A stretch of DNA of 64,000 nucleotides. It comes from a virus. Of the stretch, positions 293 to 60,631 are shown one piece after another. Location: positions 1-64,000 of IMG/VR virus record IMGVR_UViG_3300038549_000009; one strand, written 5' to 3'. The translations under genes and the position numbers were made by a program. The notes beneath the pieces are model-generated. The model was not told the DNA's origin. It saw only the letters and a list, made by a program, of their open reading frames with translations, and searched no databases. Position 1 is the first letter of the stretch. Each line of letters starts with the position of its first letter.

Positions 293-1857
293 AGTATCTG
301 CTCGTCCCCTCCGCGCGCGCGATCCTCCTGAACCCCGCCGACCCCGACGGGGTTCTCCGTTACGTGACGACCGCGCGCCGCGTCGAGGTGGCCGGCCAGC
401 CCTACATCGCCGTGCCCCACGGCATCCGGGAGACGACGCACCTCCGCGCGCTCGGCGCGATGGTCCCCTCGCCCATCGGTTACTACTACAACTGGCCGAA
501 GGTGGCGGGGCTCCACGAGCCGTGGATACACCAGCGCGAGACCGCCGGCTTCCTAACCCTCTACCCGCGCTGCTACTGTTTAAACGACATGGGCACGGGC
601 AAGACCTATTCGGCGCTGTGGGCCGCCGACTACCTGATGACGCTCGGCCTCGTGAACAAGGTGTTCGTGTTCTCGCCGCTCTCGACGCTCGATCTCGTGT
701 GGGGGAATTCCCTGTTCGACACGTTCGGGCATCGCCGCTTCGCGATCCTGCACGGGACCGCGCAGCACCGCCGGAAGATGTTCAATCAGGACCACCACTT
801 CTACATCATCAATCACGACGGCTTCGACATCGTGATGAACGAATTCAGGGAGCGCGAAGACCTGAGCCTCGTCATCATCGACGAGCTGGCGGCCTACCGC
901 AACCACACCACCAGCCGGTTCAAAAAACTGCGCCGGCGCCTGCACCCCGACCAGATGGTGTGGGGCATGACCGGTTCGCCCATGCCGAACGCGCCGAGCG
1001 ATGTGTGGTCGCAGTGCAAGCTCGTCACCCCGCACACGGTCGACGAGACCTTCGGTGCGTTCCGCCACAAGGTCGAGTCGCAGGAGAGCGCGCACGTCTG
1101 GTTGCCGCGCAAGGAAGCAGTCGACGTGGCCTACCGCGTCATGGCCCCAGCCATCCGCTTCGCGCGCGAGGACTGCGTCGACCTGCCGGAGGTCGTCTAC
1201 TCCGATCGGCACGCGGAGATGACGGCGGACCAGAAGCGCGTCTACAAGGAAGTGGCAACCAAGCTCTACGCTGAGTGGCAGGGCGGCCAGATCACGGCGG
1301 CGAACGCCGGCGTCAAGCTGTTTAAACTCGTGCAGGTCGCGTGCGGCATCGTCTACGATAGCGAGGGCCGGGAGCAGTTCATCGGCGCGCAGCCCCGGCT
1401 CGACGTGCTGATGGAAGTGATCGAGGAGGCGGCGGGCAAGGTCATCGTGTTCTGCCCGTTCCGCTCGGTCCTCAACATGGTGGCCGACTACCTGACCAAG
1501 CAGGGGCGCACCGTCGCCGTGGTCCACGGGGACGTGTCGCCGACCAAGCGGCGCGCGGTCTTCAATGACTTCCAGAAGCAGGAGGCCCCGGACACGCTCG
1601 TCGCCGATCCGGGAACTATGGCGCACGGGTTGAATCTAAGCAAGGCGAGCGTCGTCGCGTGGTTCGGGCCCGAGGTCTCGAACGAGACCTATACCCAAGC
1701 CAACGCGCGGCCGGTGCGCGAGGGGCAGGTCCACAAGACCAACATCGTGCACATACAGGGCTCCCCAGTGGAGCGGAAGATTTACAAGAAACTGCGAGAG
1801 CGCGGGTCGTTACAGGCCGCGCTCCTCGAACTCGTCGCGGAGGCGTTTAAACTGTGA
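289..1857 (+). CDS. SNF2/DEAD-like superfamily 2 helicase
   Basis: This 522-residue protein starts with GTG overlapping the previous stop. Superfamily 2 motifs are visible: motif I GTGKT near residue 102, motif II DELA near 198 (a DEAx variant), motif III TGSPMP near 226, and motif VI-like QANARPVREGQ near 470. The spacing fits phage SNF2-type DNA helicases, which unwind or remodel DNA in replication and recombination using ATP. Such genes usually lie next to VRR-NUC nucleases, which agrees with the proposed join of the two window edges. Three copies of GTTTAAAC lie in this gene (578, 1320, 1845), one of them read in a different codon frame from the other two. Confidence 0.9.
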   Translation: MKYLLVPSARAILLNPADPDGVLRYVTTARRVEVAGQPYIAVPHGIRETTHLRALGAMVPSPIGYYYNWPKVAGLHEPWIHQRETAGFLTLYPRCYCLNDMGTGKTYSALWAADYLMTLGLVNKVFVFSPLSTLDLVWGNSLFDTFGHRRFAILHGTAQHRRKMFNQDHHFYIINHDGFDIVMNEFREREDLSLVIIDELAAYRNHTTSRFKKLRRRLHPDQMVWGMTGSPMPNAPSDVWSQCKLVTPHTVDETFGAFRHKVESQESAHVWLPRKEAVDVAYRVMAPAIRFAREDCVDLPEVVYSDRHAEMTADQKRVYKEVATKLYAEWQGGQITAANAGVKLFKLVQVACGIVYDSEGREQFIGAQPRLDVLMEVIEEAAGKVIVFCPFRSVLNMVADYLTKQGRTVAVVHGDVSPTKRRAVFNDFQKQEAPDTLVADPGTMAHGLNLSKASVVAWFGPEVSNETYTQANARPVREGQVHKTNIVHIQGSPVERKIYKKLRERGSLQAALLELVAEAFKL

Positions 1858-1876: not shown

Positions 1877-1905
1877 TTGACATCCAAGCATGGACCGCGT
1901 ATCAT
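1877..1905 (+). promoter_or_regulatory. sigma70-type promoter, consensus -35 and near-consensus -10
   Basis: TTGACA at 1877-1882 and TATCAT at 1900-1905 are separated by exactly 17 bp. It lies in the short gap after the helicase and 22 bp before the next start codon. It would drive the 1928-7.6 kb early/replication genes using host RNA polymerase. Confidence 0.8.
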
Positions 1906-2575: not shown

Positions 2576-3895
2576 ATGGGGACGCAACTCACTGTCATCA
2601 ACGCGCCGCTGCCGGCGCATCTGCAAAAGCACTCCGAGCGCGCGAAGGCGGAAGCCGCGAGCGCCAAGGGTGGCATCAAGTCCGGCGGTTTCACGCGCAT
2701 CTCGATCTCCGGGGGCAAGTTCCACTTGCACAAGGATAAAAAGTCGCGGCTGATTACCGACCCGCGCGATCCGTCGCTCCCGCTCATGAAGCTCGAGGTC
2801 GTCGCGATCCGCTCGAACCCGAACCTGAGCAAGCAGTTCTACGAGGGTGACTACTCGCCGGGCGACAACAAGGAACCCGACTGCTCCTCGGAGGACGGCA
2901 TCACACCCGACGTGGCGCAGCCGAAGTCACCGACCTGCGCGAACTGCTACTTCAACAAGTGGGGCTCGAAGATCACCCCCGAAGGCAAACCCGCCAAGGC
3001 GTGCTCGGACAACAAGCGGCTTGTCATCCTGCCGCTCGCGGACCTGAACTACGAACCGCTCGGGTTCAACGTAACGCCCGGCTCGCTGAAGGCGTGGGGC
3101 GAATACGTCGAGGCGCTGGATAAGTCCGGGCGCGGCGTGTTCGGTGTCGTGACCGCGATCACGTTCGATCCGCACGTCTCGTTCCCGAAGGTGAACTTCA
3201 ACTACGTGCGCGACCTGACCGAGGCCGAGACCGACCTCGTGCTGAAGCGCGCGGACTCCCCCGAGGCCGAGAACATCGTCAACCCGAAGGCCGGGTTCCA
3301 GACAGCCCCGGCGCAGCCCGCCGTGCCGACCGAACCGGTCAAGCCACTGGCACAGAACCATGTGCCGGCGACCGAAGCGGTCACGCTCGGCGGCGCAGGG
3401 TTCGCACCCCCGGTGGCCCCGACGCCCACGGCGCCTACGGCCCCGGCCCCCATCGCACCGGCGTTCGCACCCCCGGTCGCACCGGCGCCCACGGCCCCGG
3501 CTACCCCGGTCGACCCCTACGCTGGCCATCCGGCCTACGTGAAGGTAGCCGTGGAAGCTGCCGGCGGGCTCGGGACGCCCTCGGGGGCGCAGGTCTTCGC
3601 CCAGTTGACCGCCGGCACTGGGGGGGCTCAAGTCCCCGCCAAGGGCCCCGGCCGGCCCCGTAAGGCCGCCGCTGCCCCAGCCGCTCCCGCCGCTGCCCCG
3701 GCCGCTCCCGTGGCCCCGCAGGCGCCCGCTGGCGCGTTCGGGCTCGCCCCGGAAGCTCCGGCACCGACGGCCCCCACGGCTGCCGCACCGGCGACCCCGG
3801 CGGGCGGCTTCTCGGCGGCGCCGGCGGCAGCCGTTGCCCCGGCCGGCCAGATGTCCGATCTCGGCGCTCTGCTGGACGCGGCGCTCAAGGCGTAA
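2576..3895 (+). CDS. putative DNA-binding/SSB-like phage protein with Ala-Pro-rich tail
   Basis: This 439-residue protein has a compact N-terminal domain (about residues 1-230) and a long Ala/Pro-rich linker ending in a short helix (LGALLDAALKA). The N-domain has a Cys cluster CANCYFNKWG followed by a second Cys in KACSDNKR. A folded domain plus a flexible low-complexity tail resembles phage single-stranded DNA-binding proteins, and it sits between early genes and the primase-helicase. An SSB-like role is therefore inferred from architecture and context; no diagnostic OB-fold motif is readable by eye. Confidence 0.5.
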   Translation: MGTQLTVINAPLPAHLQKHSERAKAEAASAKGGIKSGGFTRISISGGKFHLHKDKKSRLITDPRDPSLPLMKLEVVAIRSNPNLSKQFYEGDYSPGDNKEPDCSSEDGITPDVAQPKSPTCANCYFNKWGSKITPEGKPAKACSDNKRLVILPLADLNYEPLGFNVTPGSLKAWGEYVEALDKSGRGVFGVVTAITFDPHVSFPKVNFNYVRDLTEAETDLVLKRADSPEAENIVNPKAGFQTAPAQPAVPTEPVKPLAQNHVPATEAVTLGGAGFAPPVAPTPTAPTAPAPIAPAFAPPVAPAPTAPATPVDPYAGHPAYVKVAVEAAGGLGTPSGAQVFAQLTAGTGGAQVPAKGPGRPRKAAAAPAAPAAAPAAPVAPQAPAGAFGLAPEAPAPTAPTAAAPATPAGGFSAAPAAAVAPAGQMSDLGALLDAALKA

Positions 3896-3980
3896 GGTTT
3901 CGCGGGACCACGGGAGCTAGGAGCCTGTCGGTTTAAACGAGGGAATTCGCGCCCTGCCCGCTTTTTTCTTGGAGAAGAAC

Positions 3981-4271
3981 ATGCTCGAATTCGAGCGCAC
4001 CAAATTCACACGCGCGGTCAAGGAAAGCGGCCTCACTAAGACCGAGCTGAGCCTCCTGTTCGAGGTCTCGCGCCAGCAGATTTACAATCTGATCGCCGGC
4101 TCGAGCCCCCGCAGCGGGGCCGCAACGAGGCGCGCGAACATCTACTCCAGCGCGATCTGCGCACTGATCGACAAGAAAGTGCTGCCGTTCCCCGGTGCCA
4201 TCGTGGGGGCGAAGCGCTACTGGTCACTGGGGAAGCTCAAGACGAAGCTCTACGACCTAGCCCGGCCATAA
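3981..4271 (+). CDS. small helix-turn-helix DNA-binding protein
   Basis: This is a 96-residue protein; the ATG at 3981 is chosen because GGAG at 3971 gives good spacing. Residues about 12-40 (AVKESGLTKTELSLLFEVSRQQIYNLI) match a Cro/XRE-type helix-turn-helix, with SRQQIYNLI as the likely recognition helix. The tail is basic (KLKTKLYDL). It lies alone between the SSB-like gene and the primase, and a GTTTAAAC palindrome sits 43 bp upstream of the start codon, so autoregulation through that site is conceivable. It may be the phage's early transcriptional regulator; its target is not proven. Confidence 0.75.
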   Translation: MLEFERTKFTRAVKESGLTKTELSLLFEVSRQQIYNLIAGSSPRSGAATRRANIYSSAICALIDKKVLPFPGAIVGAKRYWSLGKLKTKLYDLARP

Positions 4272-4292: not shown

Positions 4293-7187
4293 ATGGATAC
4301 TAGCTCGTTCTTGAGCAAGGTATTGCCCGACAGCGGGCTCTACTTTGTCGAGATACCGCGCGGCGAGATGAAGGGCTTCGCGCACCACCTCTGCCAGTCA
4401 ATCGCGGAGATGGTGCAGAAGGCTCAAATCTTCGACGAGGCCGGCCACACGGTCTACTTTGCGACGGCCGCCTACCGCGAGCCGTTCATCATCGTCGACG
4501 ACCCGCGCAAGACCGGTCGCAAGGCGAAGCGCTCGCGCGTGCAGGCGAACGTGCGCGCGATCCGCGCGTTCTGGCTCGACCTCGACGTGGGCAAGAGCGA
4601 GCCCGACCGGCCGGCGAAGTATCCCGATCAGGCGGCGGCGCTCCAGTCGTTCGTGGCATTCCTCAAGGAAACCCGGCTGCCGCAGCCGATGTTCGTCTCG
4701 AGCGGCTACGGCGTGCACGTCTACTGGCCGCTGACCGAGGAAGTCTCGCCGGAGAAGTGGAAGCTGACAGCCGAGCGGCTGAAGAAACTCGCTGCCGAGC
4801 GCCACCTCCTAACGGACCCGATGCGCACCGGGGACTCGGCCTCGGTGCTGCGCCCGGTAGGCACGACGAACCGCAAGGCCGGGGGCGCGCGGCCCGTGCA
4901 ACTGATCCGGGACGCCGAGCCTGTAGCGCACGCGGCATTCGACCTCGCGCTGATCGGCGCGATGGAACGGTTAGGGGTGCCAGAAGTTCTCACGACGAAC
5001 GAACGCATACGGAGACTCAATGACCAATTTCACGTTAAGCGAGAGCTGCCGCCTTCCGACCATGTCCGTGTTGCAGAGCGTTGTGCGCAGATTAAAAAGA
5101 TGCGCGACACCGGTGGTTGTATCCCGGAACCCACTTGGTATGCGGCTCTACAGGTTCTACAGCACACGATCGGCGGCCGGACGATCGCTCATGAGTGGTC
5201 TAAAGGTTACAGCGGCTACTCCGTGGCGGAAACCGATCGTAAGCTCGATCAGGCCGCAGCTTTCGGCCCGGCATCGTGCACTACGTTCGAGGGCCGCAAC
5301 CCGGAGGGCTGCCGGGGCTGTCCGTTCAAGGGACAGATTACTTCGCCAATCCAGCTCGGCGCGATTCTACCGGCTGCCCCTACAGCTCCAGCCGCTCCCG
5401 TGGTTCCAACCGGAGCTGGTGAGGGCGGCAGCGATGAACCGGATGTTCCGCCAGAGGCTCGACAACATGACGCTGGCGATCAGCCCGATCCTCCTCCACC
5501 CTTCGCCGTCGGAGGACCCGACGCCCCCGGCCTCTACATAAAGCTCGACGGCGATGTCCCGGTCAAGTTCTACGACCACACCCTTTACCCGACCAAAGTC
5601 ATCTACGACGAGTTCGTCGGCGTCGAGCAGATCGAGGTCCGGCACTGGCTGCCGAAGGAAGGCTGGTGCACGTTCCGGTTCGAGGCCGCGACAATCGCGG
5701 ACCCGAAAGCCTTCAACAAAGCGATGCGCGAGAACGGCGTGCAGCCGTATATGGACGCGCGCGTTGGCGACTTCATGAGGTATTACATGGACTCCTACAT
5801 CCGGCGCTTGAAAGAGCGCAACCGCATCCAGCGGCTATTCACCAGCTTCGGCTGGCGCGACAAGGGCAAGGCATTCGTGCTCGGGAAGAAAATCTTCACG
5901 CCCGGCGGCGAGGAGACCGCCAGCGGTTCGAGCGCGAAGATCGGCGAGAATCTGGCCACCCACGTCGGCCCGGCCGGCGAGTTCGCCAAGTGGTTCGACC
6001 TGACCAAGCTCCTGAACCGCCCCGAGTTCGCGCCGCACGCCTTCGCGTTCTGCACCGCGTTCGGTGCGCCGCTGATGGACATGATCGACTACAACGGCGT
6101 CACCATCGTGATGTATGGCAAGACCAACGGGGGCAAAAGCACGATGGCCCGGCTCGCCTCCTCCGTCTACGGGACCTCGACGTTCAACTGGATGGGCCCG
6201 AAGCCGACCGAGTTCGCGCTCTACAACAAGCTGGGCTCGCTGAACAGCCTGCCGCTCTACATCGACGAGAGCACCAACATCCACCCGGAGATGCTGTCGA
6301 TGGTCGTGTATCAGGTGGCGAACGGCACCTCGCGCGAGCGCCTGAAGCAGGACGCGACTCCACGCGAGGTCGACACATGGAAGTCGATGCTGCTGGTCTC
6401 GACCAACCACAGCGTCTACGATCAGCTCGAGCAGTGGCGCCGTGACTGCGAACCCGAGAAGGTGCGCGTGCTCCAGTATGACTTCCCGGTCCTGAAGGAA
6501 TTCGCCGAGCCCGCCGAGATCATCCGGCAGACGACGATCGACCACTACGGCCACGCCGGTGAGCCGTTCATCAAATACCTCGTGGCGAACCGCGAGCAGG
6601 TCAAGCTCGAGACGCGCAAGATGATCGAGGTGCTGGCGAAGCGCGCGAGCATCGAGGGCATGGAGCGCTTCATGGTGGCCGGCGCCGCCTGCACGCTGGT
6701 GGGCGCCTACCACGCCTACCGCCTCGGGCTGATCGCGTTCGATCCCCTGCCGCTCCTCCTCGACTGGGTGGCCGGGGCCATCGCCCAGTGCCGCCGGCGC
6801 ATCCTCGACGCCCAGCGCGGGGCGCTCGGGACGCTCGCCGAGTTCTTGGACGATACGATGTCGTGCCGGCTGGCCGTCTGCACGATCGGCAAGGATGTGC
6901 GCGCGGTGAAGCTCCCCGTCGGCTCGCTCACGCAGCGCGTCGACACCGACAAGAAAAAGCTCTGGATATCCCGGCAGGCGTTCCGCGCCTACTGCAACAA
7001 GCAGCGCGCGAACCCCGACGACGTGGTTGCCGAGCTGGTGGCCAAGGGTTACGCGAGCGGCGCGGACGTGCGCCGGATGCTCGGGGCCGGCGTGCCCGGC
7101 TACGAGGGCGCGCAGGTCCGGTGTCTCGAGATCGACCTGTCGGCGCCGGAACTTTCGCGCTTTGCCGAGGTCTCTGGTGGAGAGTAG
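4293..7187 (+). CDS. primase-helicase fusion (AEP-like primase plus DUF927/P-loop helicase)
   Basis: This 964-residue protein has an N-terminal primase-like region with FWLDLDVG near residue 93 and SSGYGVHVYW near 135, which match the acidic and GxH-type motifs of archaeo-eukaryotic-type primases. A Cys cluster (CTTFEG..GCRGC near residue 329) is followed by a Pro-rich linker. The C-terminal half holds Walker A GKTNGGKST near residue 610 and Walker B-like LPLYIDES, typical of DUF927-type phage helicases. It would prime and unwind DNA at the fork together with the family A polymerase at 55.5 kb. RBS GGGGAGGTC precedes the ATG. Confidence 0.85.
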   Translation: MDTSSFLSKVLPDSGLYFVEIPRGEMKGFAHHLCQSIAEMVQKAQIFDEAGHTVYFATAAYREPFIIVDDPRKTGRKAKRSRVQANVRAIRAFWLDLDVGKSEPDRPAKYPDQAAALQSFVAFLKETRLPQPMFVSSGYGVHVYWPLTEEVSPEKWKLTAERLKKLAAERHLLTDPMRTGDSASVLRPVGTTNRKAGGARPVQLIRDAEPVAHAAFDLALIGAMERLGVPEVLTTNERIRRLNDQFHVKRELPPSDHVRVAERCAQIKKMRDTGGCIPEPTWYAALQVLQHTIGGRTIAHEWSKGYSGYSVAETDRKLDQAAAFGPASCTTFEGRNPEGCRGCPFKGQITSPIQLGAILPAAPTAPAAPVVPTGAGEGGSDEPDVPPEARQHDAGDQPDPPPPFAVGGPDAPGLYIKLDGDVPVKFYDHTLYPTKVIYDEFVGVEQIEVRHWLPKEGWCTFRFEAATIADPKAFNKAMRENGVQPYMDARVGDFMRYYMDSYIRRLKERNRIQRLFTSFGWRDKGKAFVLGKKIFTPGGEETASGSSAKIGENLATHVGPAGEFAKWFDLTKLLNRPEFAPHAFAFCTAFGAPLMDMIDYNGVTIVMYGKTNGGKSTMARLASSVYGTSTFNWMGPKPTEFALYNKLGSLNSLPLYIDESTNIHPEMLSMVVYQVANGTSRERLKQDATPREVDTWKSMLLVSTNHSVYDQLEQWRRDCEPEKVRVLQYDFPVLKEFAEPAEIIRQTTIDHYGHAGEPFIKYLVANREQVKLETRKMIEVLAKRASIEGMERFMVAGAACTLVGAYHAYRLGLIAFDPLPLLLDWVAGAIAQCRRRILDAQRGALGTLAEFLDDTMSCRLAVCTIGKDVRAVKLPVGSLTQRVDTDKKKLWISRQAFRAYCNKQRANPDDVVAELVAKGYASGADVRRMLGAGVPGYEGAQVRCLEIDLSAPELSRFAEVSGGE

Positions 7188-10834: not shown

Positions 10835-11252
10835 TGACGATCTCCAAATTGAAAGGTTGACATCCCATTGTCGTTTCAAACCGCCGCACCGCCGGCGCCG
10901 ACAGCAGTAGCGCCTTCTGTCCTTCGATCCATCCCAGCCGCTCGCCCAGTGCGATGCAGCCCTGCAACTGTGACCGGTAGCCCTTGGCGCTATCGCCCAT
11001 CAGGTTCGCCGAGTGCGCCCGGATGCCCACTCTCGGGTCCGTGCCAAGCAGCAGATACATCATTCGTTTAAACGTCCTGCTCCACGTCCACACCACCGGG
11101 TAGGTCCCGAGCGGTATGCACGAGAGCCCCGTCGCGTTGTCCCGCCACGGCTGCTCGCCGGTGAACAGGACCAAGCCGGTCGGCACGATGATCCGGCCGA
11201 ACGTGCCCTGATCCCCGGTCTCGTGCCGCTCGAGCCTGACGAGCGGCAGCAC
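10827..11252 (-). CDS. DUF5675-like protein, lysis cassette
   Basis: This is a 141-residue protein. The pattern LVRLERHETGDQGTFG, FTGEQPWRDN, CIPLGTYPV and, later, GIRAHSANLMGDS..QLQGCIALG follows the DUF5675 family found in phage lysis regions, where short peptidoglycan-active proteins are suspected. The catalytic mechanism of the family is not established. It lies directly upstream of the holin-like gene in the late operon. It is the first candidate for muralytic activity; the second is the SleB-type protein at 52962. Confidence 0.7.
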   Translation of the reverse strand: MLPLVRLERHETGDQGTFGRIIVPTGLVLFTGEQPWRDNATGLSCIPLGTYPVVWTWSRTFKRMMYLLLGTDPRVGIRAHSANLMGDSAKGYRSQLQGCIALGERLGWIEGQKALLLSAPAVRRFETTMGCQPFNLEIVNA

Positions 11253-14846: not shown

Positions 14847-14995
14847 TTGCCTATACTCCAGAGTATTCGTTTAAACACATTTCTGCTCCCGTATGCGATC
14901 GTGCCGAGGTCGCGCTTCACGGTGCCGTCGGCGTTGAGCACCACGGCGCGCAGCCGCGCCTCTTTCACCCCGCGCCCGAGGACGGTGAACTGCAT
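14831..14995 (-). CDS. 54-residue basic protein
   Basis: ATG at 14995-14993 overlaps the TGA of the upstream gene (TGATG), with GAGGG upstream as RBS. The reading frame ends at TAG 14833-14831, inside the start of the next gene. The protein begins MQFTVLGRGVKEARLRAVVL and ends with FKRILWSIGKWLRS, an amphipathic basic helix. It carries the GTTTAAAC site at 14869. It fills the only gap in this part of the operon, which supports its being real. Confidence 0.6.
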   Translation of the reverse strand: MQFTVLGRGVKEARLRAVVLNADGTVKRDLGTIAYGSRNVFKRILWSIGKWLRS

Positions 14996-15304: not shown

Positions 15305-18300
15305 CTAGGTTGGCCCCAGTAGCTCGTCTCGGGCGCCCGAGCGCAGCGCGCGCGGGAGCAGGAGCAGCGTGCGCTGGTTGAGCGGGAGCCCGGCGAGCGC
15401 GATGGAGCGGCGGATGCTGCGGGCGTCGAGCATGAGCGGCGTGTCGGGGTATTGCTCGTTCCAGCCCTGCGCGGCGGCGAATGCGTCCTTCACGTCCTGA
15501 TCCTTTCCGTCGCGGATGCCGCGCACGATGTTGTCGTATATCTGCTGCCGGACCTGATTGTAGAACGCCACGTCCTGCTTCACGATCCGGTCGTGCGCGT
15601 ATATCTCCGCCATCGCGGCGCTCGAGAACCCGAGCGACTGCCAGAACGACTCCATGTGGCCCACGTCAGTGATCTTCCGGCCGGCCGGATCGGTGGCGAC
15701 TCCGGTCGTCCAGTAGTTGTAACCCTTGACCATGTTGCGCGCCGCAACCGGCAGCGCCTCGTTGGCCGCGCGGTTGTATTCGCCCTGCGTGAGGCTCCGC
15801 CCGCCCTTCAGCGCACCCTCGACCATCGCGCCCACCGGGCCTAGCACGTCAGACAGCACGCGATCATAGGTCGCATCCGCCGCGCCAAGCCGGGTGCCGG
15901 GGATGATGTCGCCGAGGCCCACGCGGGAGGAGAACTGCATCCCTGTTAGGGTGTTGACCGCGCCAGTCATGAGGAGCCCGGACAGGTCTGATCCCACAAC
16001 AGACTCGCTCGCATCCTTCAGCGCGTTGCGCATCGCGCGGCGCGTGTTGAACGGGCTGCCAAAGAGCCGCTGCGAGATCACGTCGATGATGTCGAGTATA
16101 TTCGACATGAACGGCAGGCCCTCGGTGCCGGCGGCCAGCCACAGGCTCAGCAGCGCGAAGCTCGCCGCACGCGGGCTCTGCTTGTAGAGGCCCGTAATCA
16201 TCTCGACCATGTAAATCGGGAAGCTCTTGAACACGAACAGGAGCGAGCCCAAATCAGAGTGGGCGAGACCGGGGCGGTTCGCCTCGTCGTAGCGGAACTG
16301 GGTTTTGTAAACCACGTCCTTCGCAAACTCATAGACCGTTGGCGTCGGGAGCTTGCCTGCCTTCGCGAGTTCTTGCCCCGTCTTATAGGCCGCGATGAAC
16401 GTGGCGAGCCGGTTGAGGTGCTCGCCGGCACGGAAGGGCGCCATCCAGACCTTGATCGCGTTCTGCACGCGCTTGGACCGCGAGTAGATGCTGCCGCGTG
16501 CCATGCCCATGATCTGAAATAGCTCCGTGTCGAGAATCGTCCCGTCGCGAGCGGCCATGATAAGCGCGTCGCGCAGCCCCGGCACGGAGTCGACATCAGG
16601 GATCGAGTTACCCTGCTTATCCTCCAGCTTCGGTAGCGAGGTGAGAGTATTGTAATTCGATGCCGCAGTTTTCAACCCGCCGAACGTGCGCGCGTAGGCT
16701 TGTCCGATCCCTGCATACTGTGACAGGTAGGGCACCGTGCCGAGCGGTAGCTGCGAGAGCTGCACGCCCATCGCGGCGAACGATCCGCCGAGGAAGTGGA
16801 GCGAGGCGAGCGAGCGGAGCTTCGAGGACCAGTTCGACTTGTCGTGCGCGGGGTTCATGACATAGCTCACGCGCTGCTCCGCGAGGCTGCGGTAGTGCCC
16901 GGCCAGCGGTCCATCGCCGTTCCACTCGTTGCGCGCCCGATCGGTCTCGAACGTCGGGCGCCCGTTGGCGTCCTGCCCCACGCGAACCTTGTAGCCCTGT
17001 AGCGCGTCTGCCAGCGCGGCACTGAATTCGGTGTGCGCCACCTTGTTCGAGATGCCGACCGCGAACTCCGCCAGAATGCGCTCGCCGTCGGTGCTGAAGC
17101 CCGGCACGTTTAAACGACGGAAGATGCGGTTCCGGCGGGTCGAGTCGGCCTCGATGGTGAACTTGGCCAGCCGCTCTTTCTCGGTCTGCGTGAGCTTGAT
17201 CCCGAGCCGATTTGCCGTGTCAAGGAAGTCGAGATAGCTGATCCCGCCGTCGTATTCCACCTTGTCCCGCGTGTTCCACTCGAAGGTGATCTCGGGGAAC
17301 TTCGGTCCGACCGCCTTCTGCAAATGGTCGAGTGCGTCCTGCGCCTGCTTCTGCGTCTGGAACTGCGTGTAGAACACTGTCACCGGGCCCTGCTCGGTCT
17401 TGATGTAGCCGTGCGTCACGAAGTCCCCGTAACGCCGCTCGGGGATGTATCCCGTGCGCACCAGCTCCTCGATCTGCGCGCGCCGGGTCGCCTCCCACGT
17501 TTTGTAGGCGGCGGAGTCGGCGCCGAGCGCCTGCCGGTAGACGGTCTGATCGGCGGTGAATTCCTCGCGCAGCATCTTGTTGACCATCTCACCGGCCTGA
17601 TCGAACATGCGCCGCTGGCGCTCAGTCAGCAGCGCGCGGAGCCGGTTATACTCCGGCGTCCCGACGGCGTGGTTCCCGACGGTGCGCTGCATGAGCGCGT
17701 TGCTGACGGCATCGCGGTCTGCTGTGGTCGTCGTCAGCGGCAGCCACTCGCTCAAGTTCTTCTCGACCGAGTCCGCGATCAGGCGCTTTTTGCGATCGCT
17801 GTGCGCGAACAACACGTTCGACACGTTCGCCACGCCCTTGCTGCGCTCCGAAATCTTGAGGAGCGACATCAGGTTCTTCTCCACCCAGCGCATCGTCGAT
17901 CCGGTGGACGAATCGCCGGCGTGCTTGAATATCTGATCCCACGTCTGCTTCGGGGCGCCTGCTTCATCCACGGCGGCGCTCACGCGATGGAGCATCTGCG
18001 TGTGCTGCGCGCTGCCCTTCGTGTATTGGTCGTCCATGTTCTCGAGCGCGGCCTTCGAGTAATACAGCTCGAAGCCATCGGAGTCCAGCATCGTCATTCC
18101 GTCCTGCGGCAGCGGCAACGTGGCATCGAGCGCGGCGCGCGAGAACATCGTGCCTTGGTTCTGTGTCACGCGCAGGTCGTCGATCGCGTTCTTGAAGTTG
18201 TAACCCGCCTTGCGGAAATTCTCGGGGCCGACCGGGGCCTTCAGCGCGATGTCGATCCAGTTGCGCACGAACGCCTGCTCGCGGTCGGGGCGCAGCTCGA

Positions 18301-25536: not shown

Positions 25537-26363
25537 GGCACTCTCCGTCCCAGCACGATCGGGAAAAACTCAATCTGGTCAAGCTCGAAGTCCGCCCCGT
25601 CGACGCCGATCAGGTCGTAACCCCAATACCGCGATTTTACACCCCGGCCGAGGGTTTCGCCAGCGCCGGCCAGAGACTCGGCCCGCTTCCGGAACAGATA
25701 CACCCGCTGCGCGCCGCCGTCGGTGAGGACGCGGATGTAGATCGCGCCGGCGTTTCGGATGCCCATGTAGACCCGTGGGACGCGCTTGAAGAACGCGGTC
25801 CCGTTGTCGGTCTGCGGCAGCGCCATGAACCACTCGATCTCCTCGCCCGCGTCCGAGTCCCCGTCGAGCTGGTAGATGCCGTCCTCCCGCGCGCCGTAGT
25901 AACGCGAGCCGATCCTACACATCGAGTTGAAGTTGAAGTGGTCGTATTGCCCGTGCGCAAACGTGTCTGCGTTAGCCACCCAGCAAGTGAACTCCTCGCC
26001 GCCGATGAACAGGACGATCGTGAATGCGAGCCCGTCGGAAATCGTCGCGGCGAAAGCCGCAGAACCGACCAAGTCCTCCGCGACCGTCGCGCCGTCCGCC
26101 ACTGTCTCGGTGACCTGTTTAAACGCGTCGGCCGACTTGCTGAACTCCGTCGCCTCCACCTCGACAATAGCGAAAATGAGCGAGTCCTGTAGCGACTCGT
26201 CGAACGTGAGATCATCCAGTGCTTCGGCCGGGTAAGCCGCGCCGCCCTCGAGGATGTCGTCGAAGGTCATGTCATCGACGAGCGTATCCGTAGAGATCAC
26301 GTTGGCGGGGACTGACTCGTTGCCCGAAAACTGATCGTTGACAGCTACAGGAAATACGGCCAT
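25533..26363 (-). CDS. structural protein, tail/internal block
   Basis: This is a 276-residue protein with an acidic N-terminal half and a C-terminal beta region (IEWFMALPQTDNG, RVYMGIRNAGAIYIRVLTDGG). The C-terminal pattern resembles domains of tail knob proteins that read out positions of a measured surface, but it is not assigned. It overlaps both neighbours by 1-4 bp, indicating a tightly packed structural operon. Confidence 0.6.
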   Translation of the reverse strand: MAVFPVAVNDQFSGNESVPANVISTDTLVDDMTFDDILEGGAAYPAEALDDLTFDESLQDSLIFAIVEVEATEFSKSADAFKQVTETVADGATVAEDLVGSAAFAATISDGLAFTIVLFIGGEEFTCWVANADTFAHGQYDHFNFNSMCRIGSRYYGAREDGIYQLDGDSDAGEEIEWFMALPQTDNGTAFFKRVPRVYMGIRNAGAIYIRVLTDGGAQRVYLFRKRAESLAGAGETLGRGVKSRYWGYDLIGVDGADFELDQIEFFPIVLGRRVP

Positions 26364-40577: not shown

Positions 40578-41231
40578 AGGGAGGGAACTGCTGGAATACC
40601 GCGCGCGCGTTCCCCCCAGCGCCGCCCCCTAACCGCCCGAAAGAATTCTTTTTTCTAGGCCGCGACCGCACGCCGCGCGACCGCATAACGCCGGGGGGTT
40701 AGGCGGCCCGGCAGCGGGGGGCGCGTCAAGCCCGCGTGCCCGATAGTCTTGATTCTAAAGGATAAACGGGCTAACAGCGCTCACGTTCCGGGCTCGAACG
40801 CGCGACAGCAGAACGGGAAAACTGTTAGGATTCAATGATCTTAGAGGATTAACTTCAGGAATGCCGTGAGGTCCGGCCCTCGTGGACACAAGTCCGGGCC
40901 GAGCTTGATCTCATGCCATCAAGGGCTTAGCGCAGCGCTCTTGTCAACTATCCATAAATCGCTGATTTTAGAAGTGATAATTACGCGCGAGGGGCCGATT
41001 CTGATCGGTTAACGTGTTAGCACCCCGCTATACGTGAGCGGTCATACCTCCTAACTGCTAGGCGTGCTTCTAGGTTGTCCGAAAACCATACATATCGCGC
41101 TGATTTAACAGGATCATTTTCCCGCGAGCTTGTCACCGCGCGGGCCCGTCCTCCGATGTCACTTTAACTATGTGCTCTAAGATCACTGAATTTAAACGCC
41201 TAACGGTTTCGCGAGTGTCGCGAGCTTGACG

Positions 41232-41612: not shown

Positions 41613-42194
41613 ATGACAACCAAGCAGCAATACGAGACGCGCGAGGAATGGCTGCAAGCGTGCGTGGACCTTTTCCGGCCGGCATTCAAAGCGGCCGGGG
41701 AGCCGCTGCGCGAAACCATTCGCGCCTCGTGCGCATTCCCGCGCCGCTCGCGCGGTAAGGCCATCGGGCAACACTGGCCGGTCAACTACAGCACCGACAA
41801 GCACGACGAGATATTCATCTCGCCCGTGCTCGACGAGCCGCTGCGGGTGGCCGACGTGCTGGCGCACGAGTTGTGCCACACCCATCACTCGAACCATAAG
41901 GCGCGCACATTCGGCAAGCTCGCCCGCGCGCTCGAGCTTGAGGGCAAGCTCACGGCGACCATCGGCGGGGAGAAATTTAAACAGCGCTTTGGAGCCGCCA
42001 TCGCGAAGCTAGGGCCCTATCCGCACGGCGCGATGACCGAGCGCTCGCGGCCGACGGGCGGGCAGTCCACGCGCCTGCTCAAGTGCGAGTGCAAGGGGTG
42101 CGGCTACCTCGCACGCGTCACGCGTAAATGGATCGACGAGGCCGGCGCGCCCATCTGCCCGGCGTGCGAATCGTCGCTGGAGGTGGCCGGCTAG
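41613..42194 (+). CDS. SprT-like zinc metalloprotease domain protein
   Basis: The ATG at 41613 follows the AGAGGAGC RBS of a conserved leader and gives 193 residues. The zincin motif HELCHTHHSNH lies near residues 85-95, followed by a helix (RTFGKLARALELEGKLTATIGGE), as in SprT/Spartan-type proteins. A C-terminal zinc ribbon has CECKGCG and, later, CPAC. Cellular relatives cleave DNA-protein crosslinks or act with RNA polymerase. In this phage it heads the accessory operon; its substrate is unknown. An upstream extension of the frame without an RBS was not accepted. Confidence 0.8.
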   Translation: MTTKQQYETREEWLQACVDLFRPAFKAAGEPLRETIRASCAFPRRSRGKAIGQHWPVNYSTDKHDEIFISPVLDEPLRVADVLAHELCHTHHSNHKARTFGKLARALELEGKLTATIGGEKFKQRFGAAIAKLGPYPHGAMTERSRPTGGQSTRLLKCECKGCGYLARVTRKWIDEAGAPICPACESSLEVAG

Positions 42195-43082: not shown

Positions 43083-43453
43083 CGACATTTAAACGCCTAA
43101 CCCCGCCACAGCGCGAGCTTGCCGCCGTGCTGCGCGCGCGGGGCGTAGTCATCCTGACGCCTGAGAACGCGCGCCCGTTGCACGCGTTGAAGCGCCGGGG
43201 GCTCGCCCGCTTCGGGCTCGACGTGCACGGCCGGCGGGTGGCATTCCTGCGCCTGACGGCCGCACAGAAGCGCGCCAATGCCCGCGAGGACCGCGCGACC
43301 ATTGCGGCCCTTGCCGCGTATGACGCGCTGCCGCTGGAGGGCGGCGGACTGCCGGCCGGCAAGGGCCGGGGGCGCAAGCTCACGCACGGCGAGGACGGCC
43401 GGCGAGTGTGGCCAGAATTCTATGGTAGCTTTTCCCCGGAAGGGGGCGTATAA
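43079..43453 (+). CDS. basic accessory protein, possible winged-helix
   Basis: This is a 124-residue protein containing FKRLTPPQRELAAVLRARGVVIL and a beta-like turn (RRGLARFGLDVHGRRVAFLRL). The combination of helices followed by two strands is compatible with a winged-helix fold, but this is only a shape judgement. An ATTTAAAC site lies at its third codon. Confidence 0.5.
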   Translation: MTTFKRLTPPQRELAAVLRARGVVILTPENARPLHALKRRGLARFGLDVHGRRVAFLRLTAAQKRANAREDRATIAALAAYDALPLEGGGLPAGKGRGRKLTHGEDGRRVWPEFYGSFSPEGGV

Positions 43454-43997: not shown

Positions 43998-44422
43998 GGG
44001 GCGGACTCGAATCAGCGGCGCGCTGGAACGCGCATTTTGCGCGCGAGGCCGACCGCAACCGCGAGGCGACCATCCGGGCGCTGCGCACCCTAACGGCCGA
44101 GATACAGGCACGCTTCGCGCCCGAGCAGGCGCGTGAGGACGGCTTCTGGAGCGTCTGGTATGAATGGCACAAGACCGTGGAGGCCGTGCGCGTGCCGATG
44201 GGCAACCTCTACTATTACGCGCAAGGCGGCGGCTACGGGCCGAGCGCTGTATTCGAGGAATTTAAACGCATCGTCGAGCGCCGGCCCATCCCTGAGCCGC
44301 GCCCGGAGCCGGCCACGCGCGGCACGCATACCAAGCTCACCGGCAAGCTGGCGCGCGACTTCCGCGCTGAGCTTGCGGGCCCGGCACCCGAGCAGGGAGC
44401 GCTAGACTTGCGGAAGGACTAG
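43994..44422 (+). CDS. hypothetical accessory protein
   Basis: This is a 142-residue protein with a helical, charged N-terminal half (ARWNAHFAREADRNREATIRALRTLTAEIQ), an aromatic middle (FWSVWYEWHKTV) and a Pro/Arg-rich end. The ATTTAAAC site at 44260 is read as Phe-Lys. Function unknown. Confidence 0.6.
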   Translation: MRGGLESAARWNAHFAREADRNREATIRALRTLTAEIQARFAPEQAREDGFWSVWYEWHKTVEAVRVPMGNLYYYAQGGGYGPSAVFEEFKRIVERRPIPEPRPEPATRGTHTKLTGKLARDFRAELAGPAPEQGALDLRKD

Positions 44423-45410: not shown

Positions 45411-45619
45411 GCACCGCACATAAGCACGTCCCGGACGTGCGCATCGTGAACCACGGGAGCGTCGTGCTGCTGCATTTAAACACGCCGCCAGCGCGCGACT
45501 GGGCGCTCAACAATATCGACCCGGACGCGCCCCGCTTCGGCCGGGCCGTCGTCGTCGAGCCGCGCTACGTGGCGGCCATCGCCGACGGCATGAGCGCCGA
45601 CGGGCTGGAGGTGCGCTAA
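45407..45619 (+). CDS. hypothetical accessory protein
   Basis: This is a 70-residue protein coupled to both neighbours (ATGA, TAATG). It contains VRIVNHGSVVLLHLNTP, with the ATTTAAAC site read as Leu-Asn. Confidence 0.5.
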   Translation: MSTAHKHVPDVRIVNHGSVVLLHLNTPPARDWALNNIDPDAPRFGRAVVVEPRYVAAIADGMSADGLEVR

Positions 45620-46189: not shown

Positions 46190-46358
46190 ACTATCGAAGC
46201 ATGAGCAGCACCGGCTGGCGCGCGGGGTATCGACGCCGTGCGCCGCATGGCATGGGACGTTCGGAGGCCGCTGTTTAAATTGCGGCTACACGCCGGGCCG
46301 CATCGTCGAGGATGTCATCAAGGCGCGCCAAGCTGAGCGCGCGGAGGGAATAAAGTGA
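46179..46358 (+). CDS. small Cys-containing protein
   Basis: This is a 59-residue protein with CAAWHGTFGGRCLNCGY, giving three Cys and a His in a short span, possibly one zinc site. It ends in a basic helix (DVIKARQAERAEG). The GTTTAAAT site is read as Leu-Asn. Confidence 0.5.
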   Translation: MTARLSKHEQHRLARGVSTPCAAWHGTFGGRCLNCGYTPGRIVEDVIKARQAERAEGIK

Positions 46359-46708: not shown

Positions 46709-46878
46709 TGAATTACCACGAGACGCGAGACGCTGCGCTCCCTGAGCAGCAACGGCTTAACGCCCTAACGGGCAAGCCGCACGTCATCCGGCGCGTCGAG
46801 CACGGCGAGCGGGCCGGCTGGTATTACGTCGAGCCGTTTAAATCCGCTCCGAAAAATGTCTTTACTCCCATCATCTGA
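46708..46878 (+). CDS. hypothetical accessory protein
   Basis: This is a 56-residue protein starting at TAATG. It includes ALTGKPHVIRRVEHGERAGW and YYVEPFKSAPKN; the GTTTAAAT site encodes Phe-Lys. It ends just before a promoter. Confidence 0.5.
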   Translation: MNYHETRDAALPEQQRLNALTGKPHVIRRVEHGERAGWYYVEPFKSAPKNVFTPII

Positions 46879-47241: not shown

Positions 47242-47365
47242 GCCCGTCCGCCTTCTGATTCTGGCCGGGCTCCTGCTATTCCTCACAGGGGCCCGGCTGT
47301 TTGTGTTTGCACTGAGGGAATCGCGCGAGCGCCCGGAAGACTCGCGCATAGACTGGGAGATTTAA
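47234..47365 (+). CDS. 43-residue membrane peptide
   Basis: It starts with ATG overlapping the previous gene by 8 bp. A single membrane segment (LLILAGLLLFLTGARLFVFAL) is followed by a charged tail. The stop codon TAA is part of the ATTTAAAC site at 47360. Confidence 0.5.
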   Translation: MFEPVRLLILAGLLLFLTGARLFVFALRESRERPEDSRIDWEI

Positions 47366-47368
47366 ACG

Positions 47369-48246: not shown

Positions 48247-48256
48247 GAGCGTTTAA

Positions 48257-48646
48257 ATGAGCTACACGACCACCATGCGCAAGGACCGGGACGGTTGGCG
48301 CGCCGAGACGCGCATCACTCTCCCGGACGTGCAAGCGCACGCACTAACGCACCGGCCCGAGGAGAAGGGCGAGACGGTGCTCAGCCTCACGACATCCAAG
48401 CGGACGCGCGGCCTGTCCACGTTCGCGAGCGTAGCGTTCCACGCTGAGAACGGCTTCACGACGCACGCGATGGGGATGGGGACCGGACTGGGCGACTACG
48501 GGCGCACGATTCTGCAATCCGGGGACCGCTGCACCGAGAAGGCCATCGCCCGCCTGCACGCCGAGGCGCTGAACCTCGTGCCGACGGTGCTCGAGGCAGT
48601 GCGCGCGCACTACGCCGCGCAGAAAAAGGAACGCGCCCATGTTTGA
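48257..48646 (+). CDS. hypothetical accessory protein
   Basis: This is a 129-residue protein whose start codon lies in the GTTTAAAT site region (TTTAAATGAG). RBS TAGGAGCG precedes it. It has beta-like segments and a helical end (ALNLVPTVLEAVRAHYAAQKK). No family recognised. Confidence 0.6.
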   Translation: MSYTTTMRKDRDGWRAETRITLPDVQAHALTHRPEEKGETVLSLTTSKRTRGLSTFASVAFHAENGFTTHAMGMGTGLGDYGRTILQSGDRCTEKAIARLHAEALNLVPTVLEAVRAHYAAQKKERAHV

Positions 48647-48833
48647 GACCATGAGCAGCACCGTCAAGCAAGACACGACGCTGAGATTCACGAGCAAGCT
48701 GGAGCGTGACCGGAAGGCGCGCGAGCTTCGGAAGCAGGGCTACACCGTGGAATGCAAGACGTGGGATTTTACGGACCTCGCGCGTGCCATTAGCTACGAG
48801 CTAACGGCCACGCGCACGATCAGGCGCGTTTAA
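48639..48833 (+). CDS. small basic hypothetical protein
   Basis: This is a 64-residue protein starting inside the previous gene's end. It contains LRFTSKLERDRKARELRKQGYTVECKTW around residues 15-43, a helical, charged region. It ends on the TAA of the GTTTAAAT site at 48828. Confidence 0.5.
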   Translation: MFETMSSTVKQDTTLRFTSKLERDRKARELRKQGYTVECKTWDFTDLARAISYELTATRTIRRV

Positions 48834-48840
48834 ATCCATC

Positions 48841-49652: not shown

Positions 49653-49863
49653 CGACAAGGATGTCATCATCCCGCCGGTCCTGCTGAAGCTCGACCGGCT
49701 GGACACCGAGGCCCTGCGCGAGCTACTGCACATGGTGCCGGGAGTGAATCACTGGGCGCTCGACCGGGCTACCGACGCAGCCATGCGCGAGGCGTTTAAA
49801 TCCTACTGGCGGACGGGGAAGCTGACCGAGGCCAACATCTTCAACTTCAGGGGGGGCAAGTGA
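49633..49863 (+). CDS. small hypothetical protein
   Basis: This is a 76-residue GTG-start protein with a helical body (LKLDRLDTEALRELLHMVP) and an AFKSYW segment containing the GTTTAAAT site. It overlaps the previous gene by 20 bp. Confidence 0.55.
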   Translation: MSKSRHNDKDVIIPPVLLKLDRLDTEALRELLHMVPGVNHWALDRATDAAMREAFKSYWRTGKLTEANIFNFRGGK

Positions 49864-50643: not shown

Positions 50644-50708
50644 GCATCATCAACATCATCATCCTGCTGGTGATCGGCACGCTGCTGGTCATGCCGGGGT
50701 GCATTTAA
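50634..50708 (+). CDS. 24-residue membrane peptide with lipobox-like end
   Basis: A GTG at 50634 (or 50640) is preceded by GGAGG at 50625-50629. The peptide (IINIIILLVIGTLLVMPGC) is entirely hydrophobic and ends with CI; the stop TAA lies inside the ATTTAAAC site at 50703. It is very short, so it may be a leader peptide rather than a protein. Confidence 0.4.
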   Translation: MRVSIINIIILLVIGTLLVMPGCI

Positions 50709-50720
50709 ACGGAGGGTTTC

Positions 50721-51858: not shown

Positions 51859-52244
51859 ATGACAAGCTCGCCAAGGCGATGCGCAAGATGTCGAAGTATC
51901 GGCCGGGCCCGCAACCGAAGCCCGAGTTCCCCGGCGTCCATCATCTGCTGGAGGTCCCGCTCTACGCTACACACACCCGGACTATCCGCGAGATGGGCCC
52001 GAGGGGAAAGATCATCGCGCGCAAGGTTGAGAAGATACTCTACGGAGCCGACGGGAAAACACCGCTCTCGCCGTTGTGGCACCAAGTCAAGGACAAGGAC
52101 GGCAACGAGCGCGTGGTCCACAAGACCGAGGTCGTGCCGATCCTGAAACCCATCCGGCTGCTGCCGGGCTCGCCGAAGGCGAACTACCGCCGGTTGAAGC
52201 GCGCATTTAAACAACACGAGGCCGCCCGTGGCATATCCGCCTAA
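51855..52244 (+). CDS. basic accessory protein
   Basis: This is a 129-residue protein, Lys/Arg/Pro-rich, with the repeated motif YRPGPQPKPEFPG and a terminal FKQHEAARG. The ATTTAAAC site encodes Phe-Lys. No family recognised. Confidence 0.55.
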   Translation: MNDKLAKAMRKMSKYRPGPQPKPEFPGVHHLLEVPLYATHTRTIREMGPRGKIIARKVEKILYGADGKTPLSPLWHQVKDKDGNERVVHKTEVVPILKPIRLLPGSPKANYRRLKRAFKQHEAARGISA

Positions 52245-53930: not shown

Positions 53931-54130
53931 TGAGCCAGATGCCCGAGGAACCGAGACGCTACACCTTCGGTGGGGTCATGCGCGGTGTCTCTGACATGGT
54001 GCTGGCGGCGGATTACGACCGCCTCCGCGCCCACGCACAGCGCCTCCAAGATCGCGTCGAGGGGCTGGAGGCATTTAAACGCAGCGTCGACGAGGCGCTG
54101 AACTCGGGCGACGGGAGCTATCGGCCATGA
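53930..54130 (+). CDS. small hypothetical protein
   Basis: This is a 66-residue protein with a coiled-coil helix (RLRAHAQRLQDRVEGLEAFKRSVDEAL). The ATTTAAAC site encodes Phe-Lys. Its stop overlaps the DUF1643 gene start. Confidence 0.5.
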   Translation: MSQMPEEPRRYTFGGVMRGVSDMVLAADYDRLRAHAQRLQDRVEGLEAFKRSVDEALNSGDGSYRP

Positions 54131-55527: not shown

Positions 55528-57503
55528 CACGGCTCAGTAACATCACCACAGTCGCCGGGCTGGACTTCGAGACTTACTGGGATCAGGACTACACCCTAGA
55601 CAAGCTCAGCACCGCAGACTACATCAGAGACCCCCGATTCGAGACAATCGGGGTTTCTGTTGTCCACGCTGGGCGGCGCTTCTGGCTGGAGGACCACCAG
55701 TTCCGGGAGTTCGCGCGCCGCGTGGACTGGTCTCGCGTCGGCGTCGCTGCGCATCACGCGCATTTCGACGGCGGCATCCTCGCGTTCCACTATGGCATAA
55801 TCCCCGGCCTCTACTTCGACACGCTCTCGATGTCGCGCGCGGTCTATGGGCCCTACGAGAAGCACGACCTCGACGCGCTCGCTCGCCGCGCCGGCGTCGG
55901 GCGCAAGCTCGACATACCGCCGCTCGTCAAGGGGCTGCGCCGCGCGGACATGCCGCAAGCGCTGTGGGAGGAGTATGGTGTCTACTCGCTGAACGACGCC
56001 GAGGTCATGATGGAAGCGCTCAAGGTGATGTGCGCCGGCTTCCCGCGCTCGGAGCTGGCCCTGATCGACGCGACCATCCGCATGTTCACGCAGCCGGGGT
56101 TCGTGCTCGACGACGCGCTGCTGAAGCAGGTCGAGATCGACGAGTTGGAGCGCCGGCGCGACTTGCTGGCGCAAGCTGGCGTGACCGAGAAGGACCTCGG
56201 CAGCGCCCCTAAATTCGTGGCGCTCCTCGAAGCGATGGGAGTCGAGGTCGAGATGAAGCGCGGCAAGAACGGGCCCATCCCTGCCGTCGCGAAGTCCGAC
56301 CCGTTCATGCAGGGGCTCCTCGACGGCGACGACGAGGATTTGCGCGTGCTGGCGGAGGCCCGCCTCGCGGTCAAGTCGACGCTCAACGTGACGCGGGCCC
56401 GCCGCCTCCTAACCCTCTCACGGGGGGGCGAGCCCGTGCCGGTCTACATCGCCTACTACCGGGCGCACACCGGGCGCTGGGGCGGCTCGGACGGGGTGAA
56501 CTGGCAGAACCCGGAGCGCACCAGCAAGAAAGACGCGAGGAAGGGGCGCATCCGCAAGGCGATCATGGCCCCGCCCGGCTACAAGATCGTGGTGCGCGAC
56601 TCCGCTCAGGGCGAAGCGCGCACGCTCGCATGGTTCGCGCGGCAGGAGGACCTTGTCACCGCGTTCGCGCAGGGGCGGGATGTCTACTCGGAGCGCGCGA
56701 GCATGTATTACGGGCGCACCATCAACCGCAAGCTCAACCCGGAGGACGAGATACCGGGGCTGATCGGGAAGAACACGACGCTCGGGGGCGGCTACGGCAT
56801 GGGGTTCGTGAAGTTCGCGATGGAGCTGCTGCGCGGGATGTTCGGGGGCCCACGCATCCAGTTCACCGAGGACGACATCGTGCGTTTAAATGTCGACGCG
56901 CAGGCGTTCCTCAACAACAAGTGGAAGATGAAGCGGGTGTCCGAAGCGCCGACCCGGCTCGACCGCAAGGCGATGCTGGTGCACTGTATCGTGTGCGACC
57001 ACATCATCACCCAGTATCGCGCGGCCAACGACAAGATCGTCGGGCTGTGGGAATACCTCGACGAGATCGTCATCCCCTCGATGGCGGACGGGGCAGAATT
57101 TGACATCGGGCCGGGAACTCCGGGCTCGGTTCGGGTGTCCAAGAACTCGATCATCCTGCCCAACGGGCTCGCGCTGCGCTACGACAACCTGCGCCGGTCC
57201 GGGGCGCAGTGGATATACGACACGCCGCGCGGCATCCGGCACCTCTACGGGGGAAAGACGACCGAGAACCTGATCCAAGCGCTCCACCGCATCATCGTGG
57301 CCGATCAGATGCTCCAGATCGCCGAGCGCTGGGACGTGAAGCTGATGTCGCATGACGAGGTGGCAGCACTGGTGCGGGCAGAACTGGCCGAGCGCGCGCT
57401 GGTGGAGATGGGCCAGATCATGAAGGCGTCCCCGTGGTGGGGACCGGGCCTGCCGCTCGCATCGGACGGCGGGATAGCAGTCAGATATGGAGACGCAAAA
57501 TGA
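55524..57503 (+). CDS. family A DNA polymerase
   Basis: This is a 659-residue GTG-start protein. The N-terminal 3'-5' exonuclease motif GLDFETY is near residue 13 and ends in HDLDAL. Polymerase motif A is IVVRDSAQGEARTLAW near 355, motif B KNTTLGGGYGMG near 416 and motif C MSHDEVAAL near 608. It replicates phage DNA with the primase-helicase at 4.3 kb. The ATG-like coupling with the signal-peptide gene upstream indicates one transcript. Confidence 0.9.
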   Translation: MTRLSNITTVAGLDFETYWDQDYTLDKLSTADYIRDPRFETIGVSVVHAGRRFWLEDHQFREFARRVDWSRVGVAAHHAHFDGGILAFHYGIIPGLYFDTLSMSRAVYGPYEKHDLDALARRAGVGRKLDIPPLVKGLRRADMPQALWEEYGVYSLNDAEVMMEALKVMCAGFPRSELALIDATIRMFTQPGFVLDDALLKQVEIDELERRRDLLAQAGVTEKDLGSAPKFVALLEAMGVEVEMKRGKNGPIPAVAKSDPFMQGLLDGDDEDLRVLAEARLAVKSTLNVTRARRLLTLSRGGEPVPVYIAYYRAHTGRWGGSDGVNWQNPERTSKKDARKGRIRKAIMAPPGYKIVVRDSAQGEARTLAWFARQEDLVTAFAQGRDVYSERASMYYGRTINRKLNPEDEIPGLIGKNTTLGGGYGMGFVKFAMELLRGMFGGPRIQFTEDDIVRLNVDAQAFLNNKWKMKRVSEAPTRLDRKAMLVHCIVCDHIITQYRAANDKIVGLWEYLDEIVIPSMADGAEFDIGPGTPGSVRVSKNSIILPNGLALRYDNLRRSGAQWIYDTPRGIRHLYGGKTTENLIQALHRIIVADQMLQIAERWDVKLMSHDEVAALVRAELAERALVEMGQIMKASPWWGPGLPLASDGGIAVRYGDAK

Positions 57504-60090: not shown

Positions 60091-60631
60091 CACTCAGTTG
60101 GTGGCCGAGCACGCCGCCAAATATCTGCGCGAGACCTACGGGTTCGTCACGCTCACTCGCGCGGACCTGATGGTGTCGGGCTCAGGCACGGTTGAAGGGC
60201 TCAAAGCGTTCCTCAAGGCGTTCACGCAGTCGCGCCACCGCAAGGTGGCGACACGCGAGGAAGCGCGCCAGATCGGCCGGCAGCTCCACTACAGGCCAAA
60301 CTCGAAGGGCCAGCCGACGGCCGTGCCCCTCGGGTTCGAGTATTACGAGGACCACGCCGGCATCGTGCTGGTTAACGTCGCCTTAGACGCGGTGACGCGC
60401 ACGGTCCGGGAGAACGAGGGTAGCCAGTGGGTCATCCTCGACGTGCCCGCTGCGGACGATTGGCCTCTGACTTCGCAAGGGCTGTTGACGGGGCTACGCA
60501 CCGGTGATAAGCTGGTCCTCCACGCCTCGACGCTGGAGCGTTTAAATACCGCGCTGTCGCTGGCACTGGGGGGAGAGTTCATCGTGAACACCATCGACGA
60601 CACGCCGGAGGCTGCGAATGAAGTGTCATAA
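60065..60631 (+). CDS. hypothetical protein
   Basis: The ATG at 60065 gives 188 residues. The start LLIALESNTQLVAEHAAKYL is beta-alpha like, and there are no clear kinase residues. It is flanked by nucleotide metabolism genes and may be a partner or a divergent paralogue. A GTTTAAAT site lies at 60540. Confidence 0.55.
   Translation: MLLIALESNTQLVAEHAAKYLRETYGFVTLTRADLMVSGSGTVEGLKAFLKAFTQSRHRKVATREEARQIGRQLHYRPNSKGQPTAVPLGFEYYEDHAGIVLVNVALDAVTRTVRENEGSQWVILDVPAADDWPLTSQGLLTGLRTGDKLVLHASTLERLNTALSLALGGEFIVNTIDDTPEAANEVS

Follow-up and report, generated by a model that had tools for sequence, protein, structure and literature searches.

The stoperators of cluster A mycobacteriophages, which are temperate, are asymmetric 13-bp sites with several variable positions that lie mainly between genes and in one orientation relative to transcription (PMC3029335, PMC6550527). 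In L5 and Bxb1 there are 20 to 34 dispersed copies per genome, a small helix-turn-helix (HTH) protein reads them, and one copy lies near the gene for this reader. Exact sites of another kind are found in tf, a virulent Pseudomonas podovirus with 14 exact TACTRTGMC nick sites and almost no single-mismatch variants, in which the R position differs between relatives and 11 of the 14 sites fall in one half of the genome; localized nicks are in all known cases on one strand (PMC3517423). The start-associated sequences of cluster K phages are lineage-specific dispersed elements as well, and so are the repeats that we describe below for the phages G003, G024, G025 and G026, which are dyads of 15–19 bp, mostly with a spacer and mostly placed just before start codons.

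The octamer RTTTAAAY, which is the subject of this work, shares some traits with each of these elements. As with stoperators, many copies (24) are dispersed over the genome, a small HTH protein is a candidate reader and one copy precedes its gene; unlike stoperators, the octamer is a strict 8–9-mer, found inside genes in 17 of 24 cases and in both orientations, in a phage without lysogeny genes, and the asymmetric 13-bp format with a single orientation and a mainly intergenic location was not seen. The original prediction of a set of operators similar in logic to stoperators is borne out as far as a dispersed set kept at the DNA level is concerned, but the comparison is loose for sites that are gapless, mostly intragenic and present in both orientations. 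The nick sites of tf, the phiKMV-like phages and T5 share with the octamers the strict consensus with almost no near-variants, the R position and the uneven distribution; the octamers differ from them in lying on both strands and in being partly palindromic. In contrast to the cluster K sequences, the octamers are mostly intragenic and are not associated with start codons.

The octamer set and its two versions

The window analysed corresponds to the first 64,000 nt of a virus record of 64,258 bp. The two ends of this record (1–171 and 64088–64258) form a direct repeat of about 170 bp and are near-identical, so the genome is probably complete, and we infer a circle or a circularly permuted molecule of about 64.09 kb. 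The few differences between the terminal repeats suggest that the assembly is of a complete genome and drew on a mixed population. No integrase family match was found in the phage, consistent with the claim that it has no visible lysogeny genes, and neither repressor nor partition families appear among the Pfam matches listed.

RTTTAAAY occurs in 24 exact copies in 64 kb, the number originally reported, against 0.43 on average and never more than 4 in dinucleotide-preserving shuffles, and TTTAAA, wherever it is found in the genome, is always part of such a site. Single-mismatch neighbours show no excess (12 observed, 15.4 expected) and, being at chance level, imply that recognition is strict. 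When the genes were shuffled among synonymous codons (300 trials), coding octamers fell to a mean of 0.39 and a maximum of 3, compared with the 17 present inside called genes, which argues for selection on the DNA. These coding octamers encode Phe-Lys (TTT AAA) or Leu-Asn (TTA AAY), contrary to the codon habit of the genome: the Phe-Lys pair is written TTCAAG 23 times, TTTAAA 12 times, TTCAAA twice and TTTAAG never, and 5 of the 16 TTA codons fall within octamers. Chance, composition and codon usage are ruled out as the source of the octamers by both kinds of shuffle and by the codon counts, and the results support a real dispersed set that is selectively kept at the DNA level.

With our gene calls, seven of the 24 octamers are not fully within a gene, where 3.6 are expected from local shifts (p = 0.03); the copy at 3931 is among them and had rightly been called one of the few intergenic copies. 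Seven octamers have a start codon no more than 50 bp away, against 5.2 expected (p = 0.24), and a link to gene boundaries or start codons was not significant. Most octamers lie away from promoters and gene starts; three of the six best promoter-like sites are within about 50 bp of one. The search for a longer motif or a promoter context within 60 bp retained only the R beside ATTTAAAC as exceeding the shuffle limit. Six base pairs are fixed at the centre of the octamer and nothing is fixed beyond about 10 bp. Among the hits of a literature search for GTTTAAAC in phages, one was in a phage genome paper, in a promoter table of phage pf16.

The sites exist in two versions, termed G-type and A-type, at the following positions:

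578..585, unstranded: G-type GTTTAAAC
1320..1327, unstranded: G-type GTTTAAAC
1845..1852, unstranded: G-type GTTTAAAC, followed after 24 bp by the -35 of the 1877 promoter
3931..3938, unstranded: G-type GTTTAAAC, in the 85-bp gap before the HTH gene, read directly from the sequence
11066..11073, unstranded: G-type GTTTAAAC
14869..14876, unstranded: G-type GTTTAAAC, not conserved in G001
17108..17115, unstranded: G-type GTTTAAAC, conserved in G001
26117..26124, unstranded: G-type GTTTAAAC, not conserved in G001
41190..41197, plus: A-type ATTTAAAC
41975..41982, plus: A-type ATTTAAAC
43087..43094, plus: A-type ATTTAAAC
44260..44267, plus: A-type ATTTAAAC
45474..45481, plus: A-type ATTTAAAC
46273..46280, minus: A-type ATTTAAAC
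46836..46843, minus: A-type ATTTAAAC, followed after 17 bp by the -35 of a 10/12 promoter (46861–46889)
47360..47367, plus: A-type ATTTAAAC
48251..48258, minus: A-type ATTTAAAC
48828..48835, minus: A-type ATTTAAAC
49794..49801, minus: A-type ATTTAAAC
50703..50710, plus: A-type ATTTAAAC
52205..52212, plus: A-type ATTTAAAC
54073..54080, plus: A-type ATTTAAAC
56884..56891, minus: A-type ATTTAAAC
60540..60547, minus: A-type ATTTAAAC

All eight G-type sites are the palindromic GTTTAAAC and lie between 578 and 26117 (0.6–26.1 kb), and all 16 A-type sites are the asymmetric ATTTAAAC or its complement, between 41190 and 60540 (41.2–60.5 kb); ATTTAAAT is absent from the genome. On the circle the G-type sites are contiguous, an arrangement with P = 3e-5 under random labels. 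The base after ATTTAAAC is R in 16 of 16 sites, which exceeds the 95% limit of the shuffles, and the orientation of ATTTAAAC is mixed (9 plus, 7 minus) within a region of plus-strand genes. Octamer density peaks in the early region with 16 sites within 20 kb (p = 0.011), and an octamer-free arc of 15 kb spans the late structural genes. The separation of the two versions by position, the constant R after ATTTAAAC and the lack of surplus near-variants go beyond the original observation.

Conservation could be followed in one close relative, G001, for the structural arm only, where one of three octamers is kept: the 17108 site persists within an 87% identical stretch, and at 14869 and 26117, where similarity is lower, the site is gone. 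Since the comparison covers this arm only and retention follows local similarity, it is uninformative as to conservation of the octamers. Searches with early-arm proteins (49017–49652) and the polymerase as queries found no close relative for a comparison of the A-type arm.

Several other features of the genome were recorded. A stretch of 1.37 kb without a called gene (40238–41612) separates the divergent late and early gene blocks and contains a promoter-like site, TTGACA/TATACG, near 40546; it is possibly the genome end or an early control region. Six CGTATAAT elements, at 43449 and 46884 on the plus strand and at 10234, 29437, 34162 and 51473 on the minus strand, look like a uniform strong -10 class of this phage. 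The start context AACCTAGAGGAGCA...ATGA recurs at three early genes (41581–41620, 43500–43539 and 44466–44505). A T5 A1-like DNA transfer protein is encoded at 60618–62168, just past the last A-type site, close to where the A-type arm gives way to the G-type arm.

The HTH gene, its upstream gap and its syntenic relatives

The surroundings of the 3931 site comprise the following features:

1877..1905, plus: sigma-70-like promoter TTGACA-17-TATCAT (11/12), likely head of the 1928–7187 gene run
2576..3895, plus: conserved gene of 439 aa, upstream of the HTH gene (synteny in six relatives)
3981..4271, plus: Cro/Xre-type HTH protein of 96 aa, conserved core gene (sub-threshold Pfam HTH_3, family profile and HMM, AlphaFold, fold matches)
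4293..7187, plus: primase/helicase-type protein of 964 aa, downstream of the HTH gene (PHROG and Pfam DUF927 matches)

The gap of 85 bp (3896–3980) extends from the stop of the 439-aa gene to the ATG of the HTH gene at 3981, and 42 bases separate GTTTAAAC (3931–3938) from this ATG, which confirms the site that had been placed here. The chance that an octamer falls in the 100 bp before the HTH gene is 0.04 under a uniform distribution and 0.08 at the local density. A sigma-70-type search found no such promoter in 3896–3980, a result that applies to this promoter type only. The best promoter of the search (11 of 12 matches) sits 2 kb upstream of the gap, at 1877–1905, and the HTH gene is probably transcribed from there. 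The gap was also considered as an intrinsic terminator and rejected, with a fold z-score of -0.28.

The Pfam HTH_3 match of the 96-aa protein (17.7 bits, E = 0.0038) is below the cut-off of 23, and it is the only helix-turn-helix family obtained for 74 small proteins among the Pfam families listed (25 of 47), a scope within which the description of this gene as the only HTH gene holds. A search with a profile of this protein's own family led to Cro/Xre proteins such as CylR2 (E = 6e-4). The AlphaFold model has a pLDDT of 86, and its VIA structure matches, HigA2, MbcA, NatR and Aca proteins, reach Z scores of 5–6.4, modest for a small helical protein; the top VIA hits are nearly all of the Xre type, and Foldseek matches have E above 0.1. 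Taken with the family profile, the predicted structure makes this very probably a Cro/Xre-type HTH protein. In its predicted structure it resembles the small regulators of that class (HigA2, the MbcA/NatR antitoxins, Aca1/Aca2, P22 C2), with a helical fold and an HTH formed by helices 2–3, but it differs in having no sequence family match above cut-off and in a C-terminal half (xLPxP and the last helix) specific to this phage family.

Single-sequence searches of IMG/VR, GTDB genomes and phage records found no relatives of the HTH protein, and relatives were reached only through synteny, starting from the helicase gene. The IMG/VR phages G021–G027 and Pseudomonas phage Rollin (OR577172) have the gene order found here, helicase, 439-aa homolog, HTH, primase. 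In the relatives examined, the 439-aa homolog is followed by a similar protein of 88–95 aa and then by the primase gene, and Rollin has at the equivalent place an HTH-like protein of 104 aa with no detectable sequence match; Rhizobium phage TM27A has no HTH protein there. The HTH gene is a conserved core gene adjoining the primase gene in the syntenic phages.

The RTTTAAAY set is absent from G021, G024–G027, Rollin, KPP25 and TM27A, and syntenic phages without it often have other dispersed inverted repeats. G024 carries 11 copies of ATTGCC-N4-GGCAAT and G025 eight copies of ATTGCC-N3-GGCAAT, with a spacer that is constant within each phage and one base apart between them, and in both phages one copy of their own repeat is found 34–36 bp ahead of the start codon (ATG) of the HTH ortholog. 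G021 has no gap at this place, the upstream gene running over the start of its HTH gene, and in G026 and Rollin a terminator-like hairpin precedes the HTH gene. The lineage-specific inverted repeat of G026 is CTAGGCTG-N3-CAGCCTAG, with ten copies counting close variants (for example at 37060–37078); it is start-associated, many copies lying directly ahead of a ribosome-binding site and its start codon. In G003, twenty copies of TCCCGGGA occur at 14977–35477, mostly inside TTGTTCCCGGGAACAA and usually leading into ACTGAGGAGAG and a start codon.

Possible readers of the octamers

Our leading, still tentative, reading (probability about 0.4) is that the set serves a DNA-binding protein that recognises dyads strictly and acts mainly on the early and middle genes. 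The 3931 octamer would then be one of 24 genome-wide sites of a sequence-specific protein with two-fold symmetry, active during infection and presumably binding as a dimer. Bound octamers might serve as dispersed roadblocks or as silencing or architectural points, and would damp transcription of early and middle genes from either direction; the A-type, with one full half-site, would be the weaker version and the G-type, with two half-sites, the stronger one. Against a DNA-binding protein, the lack of any near-match excess is more typical of an enzyme site than of a regulator's operators, most octamers are not near promoters or starts, and only one of three is conserved in G001.

The original prediction was more specific: the HTH protein binds RTTTAAAY (GTTTAAAC, ATTTAAACG) and represses its own gene at 3931, the other 23 copies being dispersed operators. 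The protein has its ATG 42 bp beyond a GTTTAAAC copy, is the sole HTH-family match among those listed for the 74 small proteins, has a predicted Cro/Xre-like fold and is the product of a conserved core gene, and the G024 and G025 repeats before its orthologs offer a parallel. However, a site this near has a chance of 0.04–0.08, the gap contains no sigma-70-like promoter and the gene is probably read from 1877, and relatives with the same protein family have no RTTTAAAY set, with no gap before the gene in G021 and a terminator-like hairpin there in G026 and Rollin. Xre-type dimers usually contact spaced half-sites across about 14–20 bp (the structure of Aca1, one of the fold matches, contains a palindromic DNA of 19 bp), which fits poorly with a gapless 8-bp core. 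Of the proposed autoregulatory operator, its position and the G024/G025 parallel stand, but the chance estimate and the lack of a sigma-70-like promoter in the gap count against it, and 3931 may be a site like any other of the 24. We therefore find it doubtful that the HTH protein represses its gene in this way; it is nonetheless the best single candidate reader, itself an unlikely one, and the odds are no worse for another protein, of phage or host, as the reader.

An enzyme would account for the strictness that a regulator accounts for less well. The octamers could be targets of a nickase or endonuclease, of phage or host origin, whose action leaves localized single-strand interruptions like those of T5, the phiKMV-like phages and the P. 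putida phage tf. Strictness, the R/Y position and the uneven density match the tf pattern, and the window encodes the T5 A1-like protein, but the known nicks are on one strand, the asymmetric sites are here on both, eight octamers are palindromic and the phage gave no HNH_3 nuclease match, so that we consider nicking improbable. Sites of the methylation or restriction type (PmeI-like GTTTAAAC, DraI-like TTTAAA core), kept by a phage-encoded modification system, would likewise explain gapless degenerate palindromes under strict recognition, which is how type II enzymes typically recognise DNA; sites of this type are normally lost from phage genomes instead of building up, a search of the phage for an N6/N4 methyltransferase gave no match, and this explanation is highly improbable. 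A host DNA-binding protein could occupy the octamers for host-driven transcription or DNA architecture, or be a host repressor that the phage soaks up. The dispersed, orientation-blind set is compatible with this, as is the finding that no second phage-encoded DNA-binding candidate matched among HU/IHF and ribbon-helix-helix families, but segregation of the two site versions by arm is not predicted, and we hold a host reader to be rather improbable.

Returning to a dyad-recognising DNA-binding protein, its fuller form would be a strict octamer code in coding DNA, with two versions by arm (GTTTAAAC and ATTTAAACR), a phage-specific dimeric reader and regional control of the genome, for which relatives may have swapped in unrelated dispersed dyads while keeping the primase-adjacent HTH gene; taken as a whole, we regard this picture as a speculative one that is unlikely to hold in every part. 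The octamers matter as dispersed exact sites that selection keeps within genes, in a phage that lacks lysogeny genes. If they mark nicks, they would be relevant to the strand interruptions of T5, phiKMV and tf, which have long lacked an explanation. Should a phage protein be their reader, control by dispersed operators would extend from temperate actinophages to a virulent podovirus-like phage.
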